Assembly (NCBI RefSeq): GCF_000425365.1
Contig: NZ_AUDH01000007.1
Span: forward strand, 62,001-126,000
DNA length: 64,000 nucleotides
DNA from: Rubritepida flocculans DSM 14296
Lineage (GTDB): Bacteria; Pseudomonadota; Alphaproteobacteria; Acetobacterales; Acetobacteraceae
Direction of reading: 5' to 3'
The translations under genes were made by a program, and so were the position numbers. Shown here piece by piece: positions 2,545 to 51,314 of the stretch. Every line of letters starts with the position of its first letter. The first letter of the stretch is position 1. The notes under the pieces were generated by a model that saw only the letters and a program-made list of their open reading frames with translations, searched no databases and was not told the DNA's origin.

Positions 2545-2772
2545 ATGCCGCGCCACCTGCGCAAGCGCAGCCTGAGGCTTGCGGGCCACGACACCTCACT
2601 CGCGCTGGAGCCCGCCTTCTGGGAGGTGCTGGAGGCGGAGGCGGCGCGCCGCGGCCTCTCGCTCGCCGCCCTGGTCGCGGAGCAGGACGCGGCGCGGGCC
2701 GAGACGGGCGAGCCGCTGGCCTCGCGGCTGCGCGTCTTCGCGCTCGGCTGCATCAGGACACCTCGCGGATGA
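2545..2772 (+). CDS. Ribbon-helix-helix domain protein
   Basis: A 75-residue basic protein starting at ATG 2545, 8 bases after the VOC stop. The sequence KRSLRLAGHDTSLALEPAFWEVLEAEAARRGLSLAALVAE resembles the ribbon-helix-helix family found across alphaproteobacteria (RHH_4 type): a short strand, an acidic first helix (FWEVLEAEA) and a second helix after RGLSL. Such proteins are thought to bind DNA as dimers; target unknown. Its last 20 bases overlap the end of the convergent DUF1194 gene, so no terminator separates the two. A longer reading frame extends upstream to 2323 but that part lies antisense to nothing and in the wrong frame of the VOC gene, so the ATG at 2545 is preferred. Confidence 0.8.
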   Translation: MPRHLRKRSLRLAGHDTSLALEPAFWEVLEAEAARRGLSLAALVAEQDAARAETGEPLASRLRVFALGCIRTPRG

Positions 2773-3433
2773 GCTTGGCGCGCAGGGCGCGGGCCAGGTC
2801 GCGCCGGCTCTCGGCCGTCATCACGAAGGCGCCGGGGCCGCCGATCACGTCGCGGCGGTAGTGCTCCTCCAGCGGCTCGCCCGCCCGCGTCACCTGCCCC
2901 GCCGCGGCGACGGCCAGCGCGTTCACCACCATGCCCCGCCGCACCACGATGTCGCGCGCGATGGGCGCGGGGCGCAGGCTGCGCATGTCCGGCCCGTCGC
3001 CCGAGACGTCGATGACGAGCTGCTCCGCGCTGAAGGGGCCCTCGCGCAGCAGGTGGCTCGCGTGGTGGATGGCGTCGCCGATGGCGTTCCAGGATTGCGG
3101 GGTGCGCGGCGCGGCCAGCAGCGCCTCGGCCACCGCCTGGGCGGACGCGTCGTCGCCGATCCGCATCCAGTCCACGATCACCTGGGAGCCGCCGGGGCTG
3201 CCCCACTCGATCACCGCCACCCCGATCGCGCCGCGCCGGCGGCTGCGGATGGCGGCGATCACCGAGGGGTGGGTCAGCGCCTCGGCATAGCCTTCGCGCT
3301 GGAGCAGGAACTCGTCCTGGTCGATGGAGCCCGAGGCGTCCATGGCCAGCACGAGCAGCGCGTCCAGCACCTCGCCCGCCGCGATAAGGGCGGGGGCGGC
3401 GAGCAGGGCGCGGCGGCTAACCGGCGATGGCAT
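2753..3433 (-). CDS. DUF1194 VWA-like protein, exported
   Basis: A 226-residue von Willebrand factor A-like protein of the DUF1194 family. A short signal-like N-terminus (SRRALLAAPALIAAGE) precedes the core strand ALLVLAMDASGSID, where Asp32, Ser34 and Ser36 form a MIDAS metal-binding motif. Further VWA features are SWNAIGDAIHHASHLL and VIDVSGDGPD. Family function is unknown; the fold suggests metal-dependent protein contacts in the periplasm. The ATG at 3433 overlaps the end of the upstream gamma-glutamyltransferase gene by 17 bases, implying one transcript. A second DUF1194 gene lies at 50730, in a quite different context. Confidence 0.85.
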   Translation of the reverse strand: MPSPVSRRALLAAPALIAAGEVLDALLVLAMDASGSIDQDEFLLQREGYAEALTHPSVIAAIRSRRRGAIGVAVIEWGSPGGSQVIVDWMRIGDDASAQAVAEALLAAPRTPQSWNAIGDAIHHASHLLREGPFSAEQLVIDVSGDGPDMRSLRPAPIARDIVVRRGMVVNALAVAAAGQVTRAGEPLEEHYRRDVIGGPGAFVMTAESRRDLARALRAKLIREVS

Positions 3434-46693: not shown

Positions 46694-47731
46694 ATGGCGA
46701 AGACGGTGAAGCGGGCGCTGCGCGTCGCGGTGGCGGGGGCGAACACGGCGGCGGGGCGGGAGGTGCTGCGCGCCCTGGCCGAGCGGGGACCGCCGGTCTC
46801 GGACATCCGCGCCCTCGGCCCCGCGCGGCTGGCGGGGCAGGAGCTGAGCTTCGGCGAGCGGACGCTGCGGCTTTCGGGCGTGGAGGGGGCGGATTTCTCG
46901 GGGCTCGACCTCGTGATCCAGGCGGGCGGCGCGGCCGAGGCGCGGGCGCTCGCGCCCCGCGCCGCGGCGGCCGGGGCCTGGGTGCTCGATCTCTCGCCCG
47001 CCTTCCGGCTGGAGCCGGGCGTGGCGCTGCTCGCGCCCGGCGTGAACCCGCAGGCCCTGAAGCGCGCGCGCAAGCGGCGGATCGCGGCGCTGCCCCAGCC
47101 CTCGGCGCTCTTCGCCGCCCTGGTGCTGCGGCCGCTGATGGCGCTCGCGCCGCTCGAGCGGGTGGTGGCGCTGAGCCTGCAGCCCGCCTCCGGCGCGGGG
47201 AAGGAGGGGATGGACGAGCTCTTCTCCCAGACCCGCGCGAGCTTCGTGAACGACATCCCCGCGCCGCAGCACTTCCCCAAGCCCATCGCCTTCAACCTGA
47301 TCCCGCAGACCGGCGGCTTCGACGCGGAAGGGGAGACGGCCGAGGAGGCGCTCTTCCCACGCGAACTGCGCAAGATGCTGGATCCCGACCTGCGGGCGGG
47401 CTGCACGGCGCTGCGCGCCCCGGTCTTCGTGGGCGAGGCGCTGGTGCTGCACCTCGCCTTCGCCGCGCCCGTGACGGTGGCGGCGGCGCGCGCGGCGCTG
47501 GCGGCCGCGCCGGGCGTCGCCCTGTTCGACCGGCGCGAGGAGGGCGGCTACGCCACGCCGCTCGACGTGGCGGGGGAGGAGGTGGTGACCGTCTCGCGGC
47601 TGCGGCGCGATCCGGGCGCGGAGCACGGGCTGGCGCTGTGGGCGGTGGGGGACAATCTGCGGCTCGGCGCGGGTGTGGCGGCGGCGGAGGCGGTGGCGCG
47701 GCTGATGGGGGAGGGTGTGTTCGAGGGATAG
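46694..47731 (+). CDS. Aspartate-semialdehyde-dehydrogenase-like protein lacking catalytic residues (USG-1 type)
   Basis: A 345-residue homologue of Asd. The NAD(P)-binding fold (RVAVAGANTAAGREVLRALAERG) and dimerisation/active-site framework are kept: VLDLSPAFRLEPGVALLAPGVNPQ, QPASGAGKEGMDELFSQT, KPIAFNLIPQTGGFD and RAPVFVGEALVLHL. However, where Asd has the catalytic Cys (NPNCST), this protein reads ALPQPSALF (about residue 136), and the catalytic His after PVFVG is Glu248. It therefore resembles the USG-1 subgroup and is unlikely to be a working dehydrogenase. Divergent from pqqA by 95 bases. ATG 46694. Confidence 0.82.
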   Translation: MAKTVKRALRVAVAGANTAAGREVLRALAERGPPVSDIRALGPARLAGQELSFGERTLRLSGVEGADFSGLDLVIQAGGAAEARALAPRAAAAGAWVLDLSPAFRLEPGVALLAPGVNPQALKRARKRRIAALPQPSALFAALVLRPLMALAPLERVVALSLQPASGAGKEGMDELFSQTRASFVNDIPAPQHFPKPIAFNLIPQTGGFDAEGETAEEALFPRELRKMLDPDLRAGCTALRAPVFVGEALVLHLAFAAPVTVAAARAALAAAPGVALFDRREEGGYATPLDVAGEEVVTVSRLRRDPGAEHGLALWAVGDNLRLGAGVAAAEAVARLMGEGVFEG

Positions 47732-47801: not shown

Positions 47802-49196
47802 GTGCCGCGCCTGCTCCACCTCCCCCTCGCCCTTCTCCTCTCCAGCCTTGCCCTGCTCGCGCCCTTCGCCCTCGCCCACGCCATGGGCCTGCGGATCGAG
47901 GCGCTGGCCTCCGCGCCCGCTTTGGTCGCGCTGCTCGTCTTCGGCGTGGGGCTCGGCTTCGCCGGCTTCCTGTGGTGGCTCGCCGCGCGCTGCTTCGCCC
48001 TGCTGCGCGACCCCGCCACCACCCCCGCCCAGATGGCCGCGCTGCACGAGCTGCCGCTCGCCCTGCCCGAGGGCACGGTGCGCGCGCTGCTCGCCCTGAT
48101 CGTCGGCGTGGTGGGGCTGCCGCTGCTGCTGTTCAGCCAGTCGCTCGGGCTGAACGACGCGGTGGCGGGTTATGTGAACGGCATCATCGCCGGCGTTTTC
48201 GGTTACTACTTCGGCGCGCGCTCCACCACGCCCGAGGCCCAGGCCGCCCGCCGGCTGGGCGAGGCGCTGAACGCCGAGCTGCGCGCCAACGAGGAGCTGC
48301 GCGCGCGCGAGGCCGCGGCCCGCGCCGAGGCCGCCGCCGCCGCCCACCCCGCCCGCCTCGCGGAGACCCTCGCCCGGCTGGAGCGCCAGGCGGGGGTGGC
48401 GCGGATCATCCTCCAGCGCCTCGCCCCCGCCCTGCCCGCGGGCCTCATCCCGCGCGAGGCCGAGACGGCGCTCGCCGCCGCCGAACAGGCGCTGGCCGGG
48501 GCGCGCAGCCTGGGCGAGGCGGCGGAGGAAGCGCCGCTCGCCGCCGCGCTGGCCGGGCTGACGGGCGCCTCCGGCCCGCTCTCCGCCCTGCTGCGCGCCG
48601 CCGCACCCGCCTTTCCCGCCCTCGCGGGCGGGCCGCTCGGCGCGGTGGCGCTGGCGCTGGGCATCGGCTGGAATCTCGGCGCCGGGGCCTGGCGGCGCTT
48701 CCGCGCCCGGCTGATGGAGGCGCCCTTCGACCCCGCCCTGTTCGAGCCGGGCGCGATCACCCCCGAATCCGCCGCGCTGCGCCTTGCGGATGCGCCGATC
48801 TTCCACCGCCTCTTCGCCGCCCGCGCGGCGGAGCCGGGCTTCCTGCCCGCCCTGCTCGACGCCGCGCTGCGCGAGGACGCGGCCCAGCGCCTCTGGGCCC
48901 GTTTCCCGGGCTTCGCCTCGCCCGAGGAGGCGCGCCAGGGCCTCGAGGAGTTCCGCGCCGCCCTGCTGGCCGATGCGGTCGCCCATGACGTGACGCCCGA
49001 GCTCGCGGGCCGCGTCGCCGCCGCGCTGCAATCCGCCCCGCCCGCGCTGCGCCCCGCCCCTGGCGCGCCGCCCGTGCTGCCCGCCCCGCCCACGCCGGAA
49101 TCCCGCGCCGCGGTGGAGGCCCTCGCCCTGCTCACCGCCGAGCTGCGCGAGAGCCACAGCGACCCCCTGCCCCTGCTGGCGGAGCTTGCGCCATGA
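47802..49196 (+). CDS. Multispanning membrane protein with coiled coil (unknown; holin-like N-terminal region?)
   Basis: A 464-residue protein, not recognised with certainty. Four hydrophobic segments lie at about residues 5-28, 36-66, 93-113 and 121-138; the last, VAGYVNGIIAGVFGYYFGARS, resembles the terminal helix of 3-TM phage-holin-like proteins. A charged Ala/Glu/Arg helical region (145-200) suggests a coiled coil; another amphipathic or membrane segment lies near 275-300, and the C-terminal part is helical and proline-rich. Start is GTG 47802 with GGAGG eight bases upstream. First of four genes with 4-base overlaps (lipoprotein, transglycosylase, VWA). Confidence 0.6.
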   Translation: MPRLLHLPLALLLSSLALLAPFALAHAMGLRIEALASAPALVALLVFGVGLGFAGFLWWLAARCFALLRDPATTPAQMAALHELPLALPEGTVRALLALIVGVVGLPLLLFSQSLGLNDAVAGYVNGIIAGVFGYYFGARSTTPEAQAARRLGEALNAELRANEELRAREAAARAEAAAAAHPARLAETLARLERQAGVARIILQRLAPALPAGLIPREAETALAAAEQALAGARSLGEAAEEAPLAAALAGLTGASGPLSALLRAAAPAFPALAGGPLGAVALALGIGWNLGAGAWRRFRARLMEAPFDPALFEPGAITPESAALRLADAPIFHRLFAARAAEPGFLPALLDAALREDAAQRLWARFPGFASPEEARQGLEEFRAALLADAVAHDVTPELAGRVAAALQSAPPALRPAPGAPPVLPAPPTPESRAAVEALALLTAELRESHSDPLPLLAELAP

Positions 49197-49801
49197 AGCC
49201 CCTCCTCGCCCTGCTCGCGGCCGGCGCGGTGGCCGGCTGCGCCCCCGTGGCCGCGGTGCTCGACCCGCCGCTCGCCCAGCTCGCCCGCTGGGAGAGGGCC
49301 TCGCCCGAGGCCATCGCGGCCGAGCCCCTCTCCTGCCCCCCGGGGCATCCCGCCTGCGCCCGGCTGCACGCTCGCCGCGCCGAGGCCTGCCTGAGCCTCG
49401 CCTTCCGCGACCGCGCGCCCGGCGCGGCCTGCCCGGGCAGCGACGCCCATCTCGCCTGCGCGGCCGAGCATTACGCCGCCGCCCGGGCGCTGGCGCCGCA
49501 TCCCGCCCTGGCCGATGGCGAGGCCCAGGCGCGGCTCTGCCGCGCGGCCTTCCTGCCCCCGGCCGAGGCGGCGGCGGAGGCGCGCCTCGCTCTCGCCGCC
49601 GCCGCCGCCGCGCCCCCCGAGCGCGCCGGGAGGTGGCGCGCCCGCGCCGCGCTGATCTTGTCGCGTCCCGCGATAGGAAAAGAAGCCGAGGCCTGCGCCA
49701 TCGCCCGCGCCGGCCGCGCCGCCGCCCCGCCCGGCTCGCCCGAGGCGGCCGATCTCGCCCGGCGCATCGCCTCCCTTCCCGGCTGCGGAGACACCCCATG
49801 A
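49193..49801 (+). CDS. Cysteine-rich lipoprotein of unknown function
   Basis: A 202-residue lipoprotein: signal MKPLLALLAAGAVAGC with lipobox VAGC (Cys16). The mature part is alanine-rich and probably helical with several cysteines (LSCPPGHPACARL, AEACLSL, AACPGSDAHLACAAEHY, ARLCRAAF, ACAIARAG, LPGCGDTP) that could form disulfides in the periplasm. TPR-like spacing is possible. ATG 49193 overlaps the previous stop (ATGA) and its stop overlaps the next start (ATGA). No family recognised. Confidence 0.65.
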   Translation: MKPLLALLAAGAVAGCAPVAAVLDPPLAQLARWERASPEAIAAEPLSCPPGHPACARLHARRAEACLSLAFRDRAPGAACPGSDAHLACAAEHYAAARALAPHPALADGEAQARLCRAAFLPPAEAAAEARLALAAAAAAPPERAGRWRARAALILSRPAIGKEAEACAIARAGRAAAPPGSPEAADLARRIASLPGCGDTP

Positions 49802-50733
49802 CGCCCCCCTTCCAGCGCGACCTCGCCTTCCGCTTCCCCCTGCCGCGCGGCGAGGATGTCCGCCAGGCGCAGCTTGCCCTGCTGCGCGCGGGCGAGGCCC
49901 CGGGCGAGCCCGATGGCGTCTTCGGCCCGATGACGGCCGAGGCGGTGCGCCGCTTCCAGCGCCGCATGGGCCTCGCGCCCGACGGCGTGATCGGCCCGAT
50001 CACATGGGCGCGGCTGATGGCCCAGCCCGGCCTTGCGCGCGAGCGGCCCTGGGCCGAGACGCTGCGCCCCTTCCTGCCCCGCCTCACCGAATGGCACGGC
50101 CCGCCGGTGGGGCAGGGACGGCTGCGCTGGCGCCTCACCCCCGCCGGGGTGGAGGTGGAGGGCGAGCCGGCCGCGCGCCGCAGCCCCGGCGGCCCGCGCC
50201 TCGCCGCCGCCTGCTGGGAGCGCCACGGCACGGCGCTGGCCGAGGGCGCGCGCCGCTTCAGCGTGCCGGTCGAGCTGCTGCTCGCCACCGCGCTGACGGA
50301 ATCGGGCGGCCGCGCCGAGGCGGTGCGCGAGGAGCCGGGCTTCGTCAGCGACGCCGAGACGCCGCACCGCGTCTCGCCCGGCCTGATGCAGACGCTGATC
50401 TCCACCGCGCGCGAGGCGCTGGGCGATCCGCGGCTCGATCGCGCGCGGCTGCTCGACCCCGCCACCTCCATCGCCGCGGGGGCGGCCTATATCCGCCGCC
50501 AGGCGCTCTCGGGCCGCACCCCCACGGGCTTCGACCCGCCCCTGGTCGCCATCGCCTACAACGCGGGCTCGCTGCGCCCGAGCCGCGACGCGACCGACCC
50601 CTGGGGCCTGGTGCAGACGCGGCGCGGCAACGGCGCCTGGCACGCCGACAGCTTCATCGCCTTCCTCGGCGACGCCCTGGCCCTGCCCCCGCCCGAGGAC
50701 GCCATCCCCTCCTTCCGGAGCCTGCTGTCATGA
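49798..50733 (+). CDS. Peptidoglycan-binding / lytic transglycosylase-like protein
   Basis: A 311-residue two-domain protein. Residues about 17-75 form a PG_binding_1 domain (EDVRQAQLALLRAGEAPGEPDGVFGPMTAEAVRRFQRRMGLAPDGVIGPITWARL). Residues about 140-290 form an SLT-type muramidase domain: the catalytic-type Glu168 in LLATALTESGG, then RVSPGLMQTL and LVAIAYNAGS. There is no signal peptide, which is the pattern of phage endolysins rather than of housekeeping transglycosylases, so delivery to the wall would need help. ATG 49798 overlaps the lipoprotein stop; its stop overlaps the VWA start. Confidence 0.82.
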   Translation: MTPPFQRDLAFRFPLPRGEDVRQAQLALLRAGEAPGEPDGVFGPMTAEAVRRFQRRMGLAPDGVIGPITWARLMAQPGLARERPWAETLRPFLPRLTEWHGPPVGQGRLRWRLTPAGVEVEGEPAARRSPGGPRLAAACWERHGTALAEGARRFSVPVELLLATALTESGGRAEAVREEPGFVSDAETPHRVSPGLMQTLISTAREALGDPRLDRARLLDPATSIAAGAAYIRRQALSGRTPTGFDPPLVAIAYNAGSLRPSRDATDPWGLVQTRRGNGAWHADSFIAFLGDALALPPPEDAIPSFRSLLS

Positions 50734-51314
50734 TCGGCTGCGCCGTCGCCCTCGTGCTGCTGCTCGACGCCTCCGCCAGCATCCTTCCCGGCGAATGGGC
50801 GCTGCAGCGCGACGCCACCGCCGCCGCCTTCGAGGAGGAGGGCGTGCTGCGCGCCATCGGCCGCGACGGCGGCGTGGCCGTCACCGCGCTGGCCTTCTCG
50901 GACGGGGTGACGCCCATGCTCGGCTGGCGCCTTCTGCGCGACGCCGAGGACGCGCGGGCCTTCGCCGCGGCGCTGCGCGCCGCCCCGCGCGGCGAGGTGA
51001 GCGGCACCGACATCGGAGGCGCGCTCTTCGCCGCGCTGCGCGCGCTGGAGGAGGCGCCCTGCGCCGCCGAGCAGGAGGTGATCGACCTCGCCACCGACGG
51101 CGAGGCGCCCGAGGCGCCGGTGCATGCCGCCCGCGCGGCGGCCGAGGCGCGCGGGGTGGTGATCAACGCCCTGGGCGTCGGCGCGCCGGACGCGGCGGAA
51201 TGGCTGCGCACCCACGCCGTGACCGGCACGGGCTTCGCCATGCTGGCCGAGGACTGGGCGCGCTTCCCCCAGGCCATCCGCCGCAAGCTGACGCTGGAGC
51301 TGGCGGGGCGCTGA
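50730..51314 (+). CDS. DUF1194 VWA-like protein without signal peptide
   Basis: A 194-residue VWA-like protein. The MIDAS motif DASAS (Asp13, Ser15, Ser17) sits right after a short hydrophobic strand MIGCAVALVLLL, leaving no room for a separate signal peptide unless the strand itself acts as one. Other VWA features: EVSGTDIGGALFAALRALEE (MIDAS Thr) and EVIDLATDGEAPEAPV. It is a paralogue of the gene at 2753 but shorter. Fourth gene of the overlapping unit beginning at 47802; a palindrome starts in its stop codon. Confidence 0.78.
   Translation: MIGCAVALVLLLDASASILPGEWALQRDATAAAFEEEGVLRAIGRDGGVAVTALAFSDGVTPMLGWRLLRDAEDARAFAAALRAAPRGEVSGTDIGGALFAALRALEEAPCAAEQEVIDLATDGEAPEAPVHAARAAAEARGVVINALGVGAPDAAEWLRTHAVTGTGFAMLAEDWARFPQAIRRKLTLELAGR

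Follow-up and report, generated by a model that had tools for sequence, protein, structure and literature searches.

Clusters of holin, endolysin and spanin genes outside phages are described as type 10 secretion systems (T10SS), and lytic release through them is argued in PMC10847048. The conserved core of these systems is a holin-hydrolase pair, spanins being present in some systems only, and the spanin-less Salmonella systems are non-lytic, according to PMC13284979. Both sources treat phage-derived wall-opening cassettes on the chromosomes of Serratia, Yersinia, Salmonella and Clostridioides, the lytic mode of which is disputed. Here we analyzed a stretch of 64,000 nt (the window) of contig NZ_AUDH01000007.1 from Rubritepida flocculans DSM 14296, whose genome comprises 3.83 Mb in 74 contigs. 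It contains four plus-strand open reading frames (ORFs), g1 to g4, with a 4-base overlap at each of the three junctions, as a first-pass annotation made from the sequence alone had described. The locus appears to hold a chromosomal, probably domesticated, phage-type wall-opening cassette that is holin/endolysin-like and resembles a spanin-less T10SS, a reading that we accept with confidence just above even. The features of the locus, in window positions, are given below.

g1, 47802-49196, plus strand: inner-membrane protein of 464 amino acids (aa) with GTG start, holin-like hairpin and predicted cytoplasmic helical domain; no family found
g1 residues 85-140, 48054..48221, plus strand: hairpin of the PxGxPEGTVRA...YYFGAR type, with homologues among small phage proteins that stand alone; N-in/C-in topology predicted
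g1 residues 144-210, 48231..48431, plus strand: long predicted helix past the hairpin; coiled-coil candidate, predicted cytoplasmic
g1 residues 211-464, 48432..49193, plus strand: all-helical C-terminal part; no structural match at E<=0.001
g2, 49193-49801, plus strand: 202-aa TPR-like lipoprotein with six conserved cysteines besides the lipobox cysteine
g2 lipobox cysteine C16, 49238..49240, plus strand: next residue Ala
g3, 49798-50733, plus strand: 311-aa modular endolysin-type muramidase without signal
g3 residues 17-73, 49846..50016, plus strand: PG_binding_1 domain; also matches phiKZ gp144 PDB chains
g3 residues 105-311, 50110..50730, plus strand: W-x-LT-x2-G extension and SLT; invariant E168, Q198 and YNAG 254-257
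g4, 50730-51314, plus strand: accessory protein of 194 aa with DUF1194/VWA match; no separate signal peptide

Pfam identified PG_binding_1 (1.9e-19) and SLT (9.2e-12) domains in g3. No hydrophobic N-terminus was present in 17 aligned copies, whose maximum hydropathy over 15 residues was 0.06-0.91 compared with 1.6-2.9 in 16 g2 copies, which upholds the earlier description of a peptidoglycan (PG)-binding and SLT muramidase without signal peptide. The alignment comprised 17 of the 32 distinct g3 loci together with a fusion protein; L042, in which the gene caller had split g3, is among the loci omitted (L and G numbers denote loci and genomes, respectively). The catalytic motifs of an endolysin, E168 and Y254-N255-A256-G257, were invariant in 18 rows. 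Homologues of the SLT module with its W-x-LT-x2-G extension were found on nine IMG/VR loci (40-49% identity). A profile of the 17 bacterial copies matched eight viral sequences, two of them identical, over nearly the full length with 211-285 bits, and SLT loci of the window's own genome partially with at most 32 bits (five tested, four with a match at E<=1e-3). The viral sequences represent eight of the nine loci: L083 and L084 are the identical ones, and L085, of the same kind, was omitted. Seven proteins from six viral contigs were scanned: portal, terminase, head, tail or Erf families were matched by six of them, and a phage family with no assigned function by the one from L086; counted by contig, five of the six carry a named phage family. 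Phylogenetically, g3 grouped with the viral sequences and the fusion in one branch (support 100/99) apart from the host SLT proteins, whose branches were long. This establishes, as far as sequence comparison goes, g3 as a modular endolysin-type enzyme without export signal whose SLT module is of the kind found on phage contigs.

The PG-binding part of g3 also matched phiKZ gp144 chains (4.8e-12), only that part being aligned. No record among annotated phages covered 80% of g3, and the L082 endolysin and the N-terminus of the fusion protein found nothing there as queries. The viral L079 enzyme has, by reading, a hydrophobic tail. The fusion protein itself is chromosomal and is encoded in genome G005 besides a normal set (L065), at L070 8392-9606; its 404 aa join a transmembrane (TM) domain of phrog_1544 (6.9e-15, function unknown), different from the g1 hairpin, to a g3-type SLT module (Pfam 1.4e-14). 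Its gene adjoins a glutamine-synthetase-like gene (by reading), and no relatives of it were found in viral contigs.

The g1 hairpin, too, has phage counterparts. Twelve IMG/VR loci encode it as a protein on its own, the length of which, with start sites uncertain, ranges from 55 to about 113 aa. A g1 profile built from bacterial copies only recovered 12 of 12 viral hairpin ORFs among 1,209 ORFs with E-values from 2e-17 to 1.3e-7, although the loci had been chosen via the motif PxGxPxGSVR and only the remainder of the match is independent, which lessens its weight. In the same search the next-best ORF scored 0.29 and the best shuffled decoy 0.15. The comparison establishes homology, at the sequence level, between the g1 hairpin and small two-TM phage proteins. 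A wall hydrolase is encoded by the adjacent gene in three of the 12 loci, namely an M23 protein in L087, on the contig of L075 (7e-13), an M23+LysM protein in L095 (1.4e-22) and, some 300 bases on, an M15 protein in L097 (2.9e-14). Several of the loci also encode small coiled-coil/TM proteins to which Pfam gives no family and which we take to be reminiscent of XhlA. Three viral hairpin proteins that were scanned had no Pfam match above cut-off and matched PHROGs only weakly (best E 0.011), the function of these PHROGs being unknown. In annotated phages tblastn detected no match at E<=0.1 for the hairpin proteins of L075 and L077, and for that of L093 only matches at E>=0.4. A lone chromosomal hairpin protein of 260 aa, with PEGTVRA motif, loop insert and Ala/Lys/Glu-rich tail, was seen in G565 (L125 7497-8279).

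Hydropathy of g1 showed strong segments at residues 7-25, 40-58 and 93-111 and weaker ones at 246-264 and 270-288. A predicted helix at 119-138 is followed by a single predicted helix at 144-210 (pLDDT by tens 58-97), in agreement with the earlier description of a multispanning protein whose last helix precedes a coiled coil. Residues P85, P89, G91, R94, V132, Y136 and F137 were invariant in 31 copies. Charged residues (K+R/D+E) around 30 hairpins numbered 70/54 before the hairpin, 18/36 in the loop and 51/31 after it, a pattern that fits an N-in/C-in topology. With this topology helix 144-210 and the remainder of g1 would lie in the cytoplasm, and the helix, being predicted cytoplasmic, would not be a periplasmic spanin arm. 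The AlphaFold2 model of g1 (pLDDT 82, pTM 0.61) was poor in the TM part and good in the C-terminal part. In Pfam, PHROGs and NCBIfam g1 matched no holin family, and no known unrelated family either. Distant copies gave no convincing family, a repetitive copy in L066 weakly matching coiled-coil and tail families; no structural relative was found in PDB or BFVD at E<=0.001, and no g1 was found in plasmids.

The genes g1 and g3 occur together. Among 200 genomes of the family, the g1 core profile was found in 25, one copy each, representing 11 of 102 genera. A strong g3 match (E<1e-20, a limit set after the list was seen) was present in 24 of these 25 genomes and in 0 of the 175 others, the next genome scoring 1.8e-11. 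The two genes lie on one contig in 21 genomes and are split in three, with g1 at the contig end (G075, G097, G176); in the 25th g1 genome (G161) the contig ends soon after g1. The gene content shows that g1 and g3 are co-inherited within the family, and, judged in the same way, these two genes form the unit, usually enclosing g2. Conservation of all four genes, expected from the first-pass annotation, was borne out in part: g1 to g3 are kept together, and all four genes adjoin in only three loci besides the window (L028, L030, L033) among the 32. The 4-base overlap of g1 and g2 recurs in 22 of 29 distinct loci listing both genes, with duplicate loci from one genome (L053, L054, L055, L057) excluded. 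Genes in relatives were called with our own scripts, so that some may have been overlooked or given a wrong start.

Outside the family the g1 core was detected in one of 288 other genomes of the class, weakly (G475, 3e-6), and the hairpin profile in five of 398 genomes of the phylum, the window's own included. In G755, which belongs to another class, a 527-aa g1 (36% identical over 411 residues, 8e-38) is followed after 29 bases by a 309-aa protein that retains a PG-binding half of this type (Pfam 2.5e-14; 52% identical to the L058 copy over 79 residues) but differs in its C-terminal half, for which Pfam gave no match; no lipoprotein lies between g1 and the hydrolase. The persistence of the pair where g2 is missing and the C-terminal half is a different one speaks for a functional bond between g1 and the hydrolase. 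The same persistence would suit a g1 that acts as a brake, its hairpin serving as an anchor and its cytoplasmic domain sequestering g3, so that the endolysin is kept silent by a membrane partner, and the predicted cytoplasmic part is indeed the largest and best-predicted region of g1. We regard this as improbable, since the hairpin is homologous to phage proteins, three of the 12 of which stand beside other hydrolases, and binding of g1 to g3 is conjecture.

The cassette is located outside any prophage seen, as T10SS loci are. Its flanks encode pyrroloquinoline quinone (PQQ) synthesis, a semialdehyde dehydrogenase, an M20 peptidase, aldolases, a short-chain dehydrogenase/reductase (SDR) and one protein without match. 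No phage family was found among 10 flanking proteins in a profile scan at E<=1e-5, in agreement with the earlier remark that phage structural genes are lacking nearby, and a search of the whole genome for two families, Phage_portal PF04860 and sheath PF04984, found none, other phage families not being searched. The nearest named relative found was a Roseococcus metagenome-assembled genome (L028) with a g1 that is 96% identical. Against this one near relative the ratio of nonsynonymous to synonymous substitution (dN/dS) was 0.08 for g1, 0.19 for g2, 0.14 for g3 and 0.10 for g4, and from this comparison all four genes look to be under maintenance. No internal stops were present among the g1 matches listed. 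A remnant of a prophage or gene transfer agent would explain the phage-type endolysin and hairpin, yet it is barely credible in view of the flanks, which are free of phage families where scanned and differ between genera, the missing portal and sheath genes, the intact g1 matches and the low dN/dS values. A scan for promoters and terminators gave no signals and was uninformative.

The distribution of the cassette bears on two further explanations. In six genera g1 was present in every sampled member among those listed, and in genus g95 in two of three. The neighbours of the locus vary: of 35 loci, 16 have an asd-like gene upstream, nine a reductase-led block downstream and five a secB-like gene upstream (the latter two named by reading). 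Such constancy within genera, together with purifying selection, would be expected if the cassette remodelled the wall for growth or for the placement of an envelope machine, g1 being a scaffold and not a pore, and g3 reaching the wall otherwise and working with g2. This explanation would also account for the large conserved predicted cytoplasmic domain of g1, which a holin does not need, for the TPR-like predicted fold of g2, for the lack of a constant cargo or regulator neighbour and for a full-length g3 without g1 in G215. We nevertheless hold it to be rather unlikely, as presence in only 11 of the 102 sampled genera argues against general housekeeping, the 17 aligned g3 copies lack a signal, and g3 groups with phage endolysins and not with host transglycosylases. 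The other explanation is altruistic defence, in which the hairpin would be triggered by a phage and the cassette would bring about abortive infection by killing its infected host cell. A chromosomal operon with lysis parts of phage type and the patchy occurrence across genera are in keeping with it; it is nonetheless quite improbable, because PADLOC, with its described defence proteins, gave no match for any of the four (E<=1), no sensor domain was recognised, and the cassette is mostly stable within genera, with the same housekeeping neighbours within lineages.

The lipobox cysteine of g2 and its six further cysteines, which agree with the cysteine-rich lipoprotein proposed earlier, were kept in 22 of 22 alignment rows, short copies of Rhodovarius-type loci being omitted from this alignment. 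In a 16-row alignment including the short L040 copy, C168 and C198 were only nearly invariant. The conservation suggests that the cysteines form periplasmic disulphides. In E. coli, Ala after the lipobox cysteine directs a lipoprotein to the outer membrane (+2 rule); by analogy, the Ala after C16 suggests an outer-membrane location for g2. Structure prediction gave a helical solenoid (pLDDT 92.5) whose nearest folds were TPR domains at E>=0.036, the best being the kinesin light chain TPR (E 0.036, TM-score 0.44). A two-component spanin consists of an inner-membrane coiled-coil i-spanin and a small proline-rich o-spanin lipoprotein. As a spanin, the role that the first-pass annotation had given it, g2 is unsupported: it has the TPR-like predicted fold and six cysteines, it is missing from the distant g1/hydrolase pair of G755, and a PHROGs Rz-like match was obtained for one g2 homologue only, at E 0.44.

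For g4, matches to DUF1194 (1.7e-41) and VWA (1.4e-10) were found. The motif DASAS lies at residues 13-17, leaving no room for a separate signal peptide, so that the earlier view of a VWA protein with metal ion-dependent adhesion site (MIDAS) and without such a peptide stands. Its assignment to the unit does not. We rejected g4 as a core part, since it adjoins g3 in four of the 32 distinct g3 loci (window, L028, L030, L033), while DUF1194-type matches occur in 121 of the 200 family genomes; the L038 contig ends 51 bases past its called g3. It is probably a lineage-specific addition, to which we assign no role. A second DUF1194 gene was observed in the window on the minus strand (2753-3433, 9.6e-62), with an N-terminal extension resembling a signal peptide. 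Genes of DUF1194 have been described near type 11 secretion system (T11SS) loci, 19 of 102 without detectable signal peptide, in PMC12282271.

The holin-endolysin-spanin logic once proposed for the four genes thus survives in a phage-type g3 beside a phage-like g1 hairpin and fails for the spanin role of g2 and the membership of g4. On the wall-opening reading, g3 would be made and held in the cytoplasm. The inner-membrane protein g1, its hairpin N-in/C-in, would offer a cytoplasmic part of ~320 residues as a gate or as a docking domain for g3. Upon some trigger, g1 hairpins would assemble and let g3 through, and g3, once across, would cut the wall. The TPR-like lipoprotein g2, probably held by disulphides, would act in the periplasm as an adaptor or brake. 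Cytoplasmic content would then be released, either lytically in a fraction of cells or locally and non-lytically. That g1 lets g3 across we consider fairly probable; a role of the cassette in secretion or release is what we infer from its parts, and that release is its purpose seems a little less than evenly probable.

Several observations weigh against this reading. No adjacent wall hydrolase was identified in nine of the 12 viral hairpin loci (+-2.2 kb read, selected neighbours scanned), and some of the viral copies sit among capsid or tail genes; the phage hairpin is, on its context, a candidate and not a proven holin. None of the viral loci examined carried the hairpin alongside a g3-type endolysin, so that they give no sign of a joint capture as one module. 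The lone chromosomal hairpin copy in L125 has no hydrolase neighbour. A holin is a small protein with one to three TM segments; g1 with its 464 aa is larger, is four to eight times as long as the phage hairpin proteins and resembles them in the hairpin only. No spanin-like protein of the two-component or the T10SS kind is present, g2 is absent from L049, where g1 and g3 overlap each other and leave it no space, and gene calling gave none in L041. Across the loci there is no constant cargo-like neighbour. A link to contractile particles was rejected, sheath genes being present in six of 25 g1 genomes vs 45 of 175 others (p=1.0). At E<1e-20 the g3 profile matched seven of 270 class genomes, the window's own included and six outside the family, and G215 has a full-length PG-binding-SLT protein and no g1. 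The g3/viral branch has an open fork at its base, and its g3 and viral members are not ordered within it; a single origin of g3 and either direction of transfer would be compatible with the tree. Moreover, the abstract of PMC12596118 reports that lysis genes have been exchanged extensively between phages and bacteria, and argues that viral lytic proteins are often of bacterial origin. Our confidence in the wall-opening reading is held where it is because the order in the tree is open and G215 has g3 without g1. We consider it probable that g3 came from a phage, and place this no higher because the tree leaves the direction of transfer open.

Relatives of g3 were also observed in other surroundings. 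In G215 the g3 relative lies downstream of a Tle1-like phospholipase gene (L119 5933-9006, 6.1e-80). In G325 (L121 2816-5347) and G362 (L120 8184-10304), stand-alone signal-less relatives of the g3 SLT module have a subtilase gene downstream of them (Pfam 1.3e-24 and 4.3e-26, respectively), and in L121 a multi-TM protein (by reading) overlaps between the two. A further endolysin set on the chromosome, of which the protease would be the cargo, may be present here.

Just upstream of g1, at 46694-47731, the window has an aspartate-semialdehyde-dehydrogenase-like (asd-like) gene without the NPNC(S/T)T motif, the cysteine of which is presumably the catalytic Cys of the enzyme. The motif is also missing from the asd-like gene in seven other loci (L028, L029, L032, L036, L042, L043, L056) and is kept in nine, L045 and L033 being unreadable. 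A second asd-like copy in the window's genome (L099) has NPNCTT. With a dN/dS of 0.24, the upstream copy may have lost catalysis while the gene was retained.

Compared with the described systems, the cassette shares most with T10SS. Serratia ChiWXYZ, Yersinia YenLC and the Salmonella systems are likewise chromosomal, combining a membrane protein of phage kin with a signal-less hydrolase outside a prophage, and g3 is, as in T10SS, a wall hydrolase related to phage endolysins and free of a Sec signal. Unlike in T10SS, g1 has 464 aa, a large predicted cytoplasmic domain and no holin-family match, a TPR-like lipoprotein takes the place of the spanin, the hydrolase bears a PG-binding domain at its N-terminus, no cargo was identified here and the host belongs to the Acetobacteraceae. 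We therefore call the cassette T10SS-like and do not assign it to T10SS; it would work like the T10SS core only if the hairpin acts as a holin.

Endolysins of the phiKZ type (gp144, PDB 3bkh, 9xps) resemble g3 in what we take to be their architecture, an N-terminal PG-binding domain and a C-terminal lytic transglycosylase. They differ in that the SLT half of g3 is closer to endolysins on IMG/VR contigs and that g3 is chromosomal. The two-TM hairpin proteins of phages (IMG/VR L087-L097, L077) share with g1 the hairpin PLxLPxGSVRA...YYFGSR and the charge pattern and lack its large cytoplasmic domain. Holin-endolysin fusions of the TpeE family in six Clostridium sporogenes genomes were taken as support for direct transport in PMC9527704. 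Like these, the L070 protein of G005 joins a TM domain to an SLT module, whereas the window cassette keeps its parts on separate genes and the TM domain of L070 is phrog_1544-like. The protein g4 is a DUF1194 VWA member that, unlike its paralogue at 2753-3433, has no separate signal peptide.

Among the open-access literature matches listed, none described a comparable set for Acetobacteraceae. What is new is an unclassified hairpin family with a cytoplasmic domain, accompanied by a TPR-like lipoprotein. Tentatively, the cassette may represent a new class of bacterial release system, in which a phage lysis hairpin with a cytoplasmic control domain and an unfused endolysin are combined with a disulphide-rich TPR-like lipoprotein replacing the spanins, retained for the host's own purposes in 11 sampled genera of one family, with the g1-hydrolase pair also present in another class with a different catalytic half. 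Since its presumed export part belongs to a hairpin family without classification and its predicted control domain is conserved, it provides, beside the systems of Serratia, Yersinia and Salmonella, a compact and independent example on which the taming of a lysis module can be studied; it also points to a function for a family of small membrane proteins of phages that so far lacks annotation.

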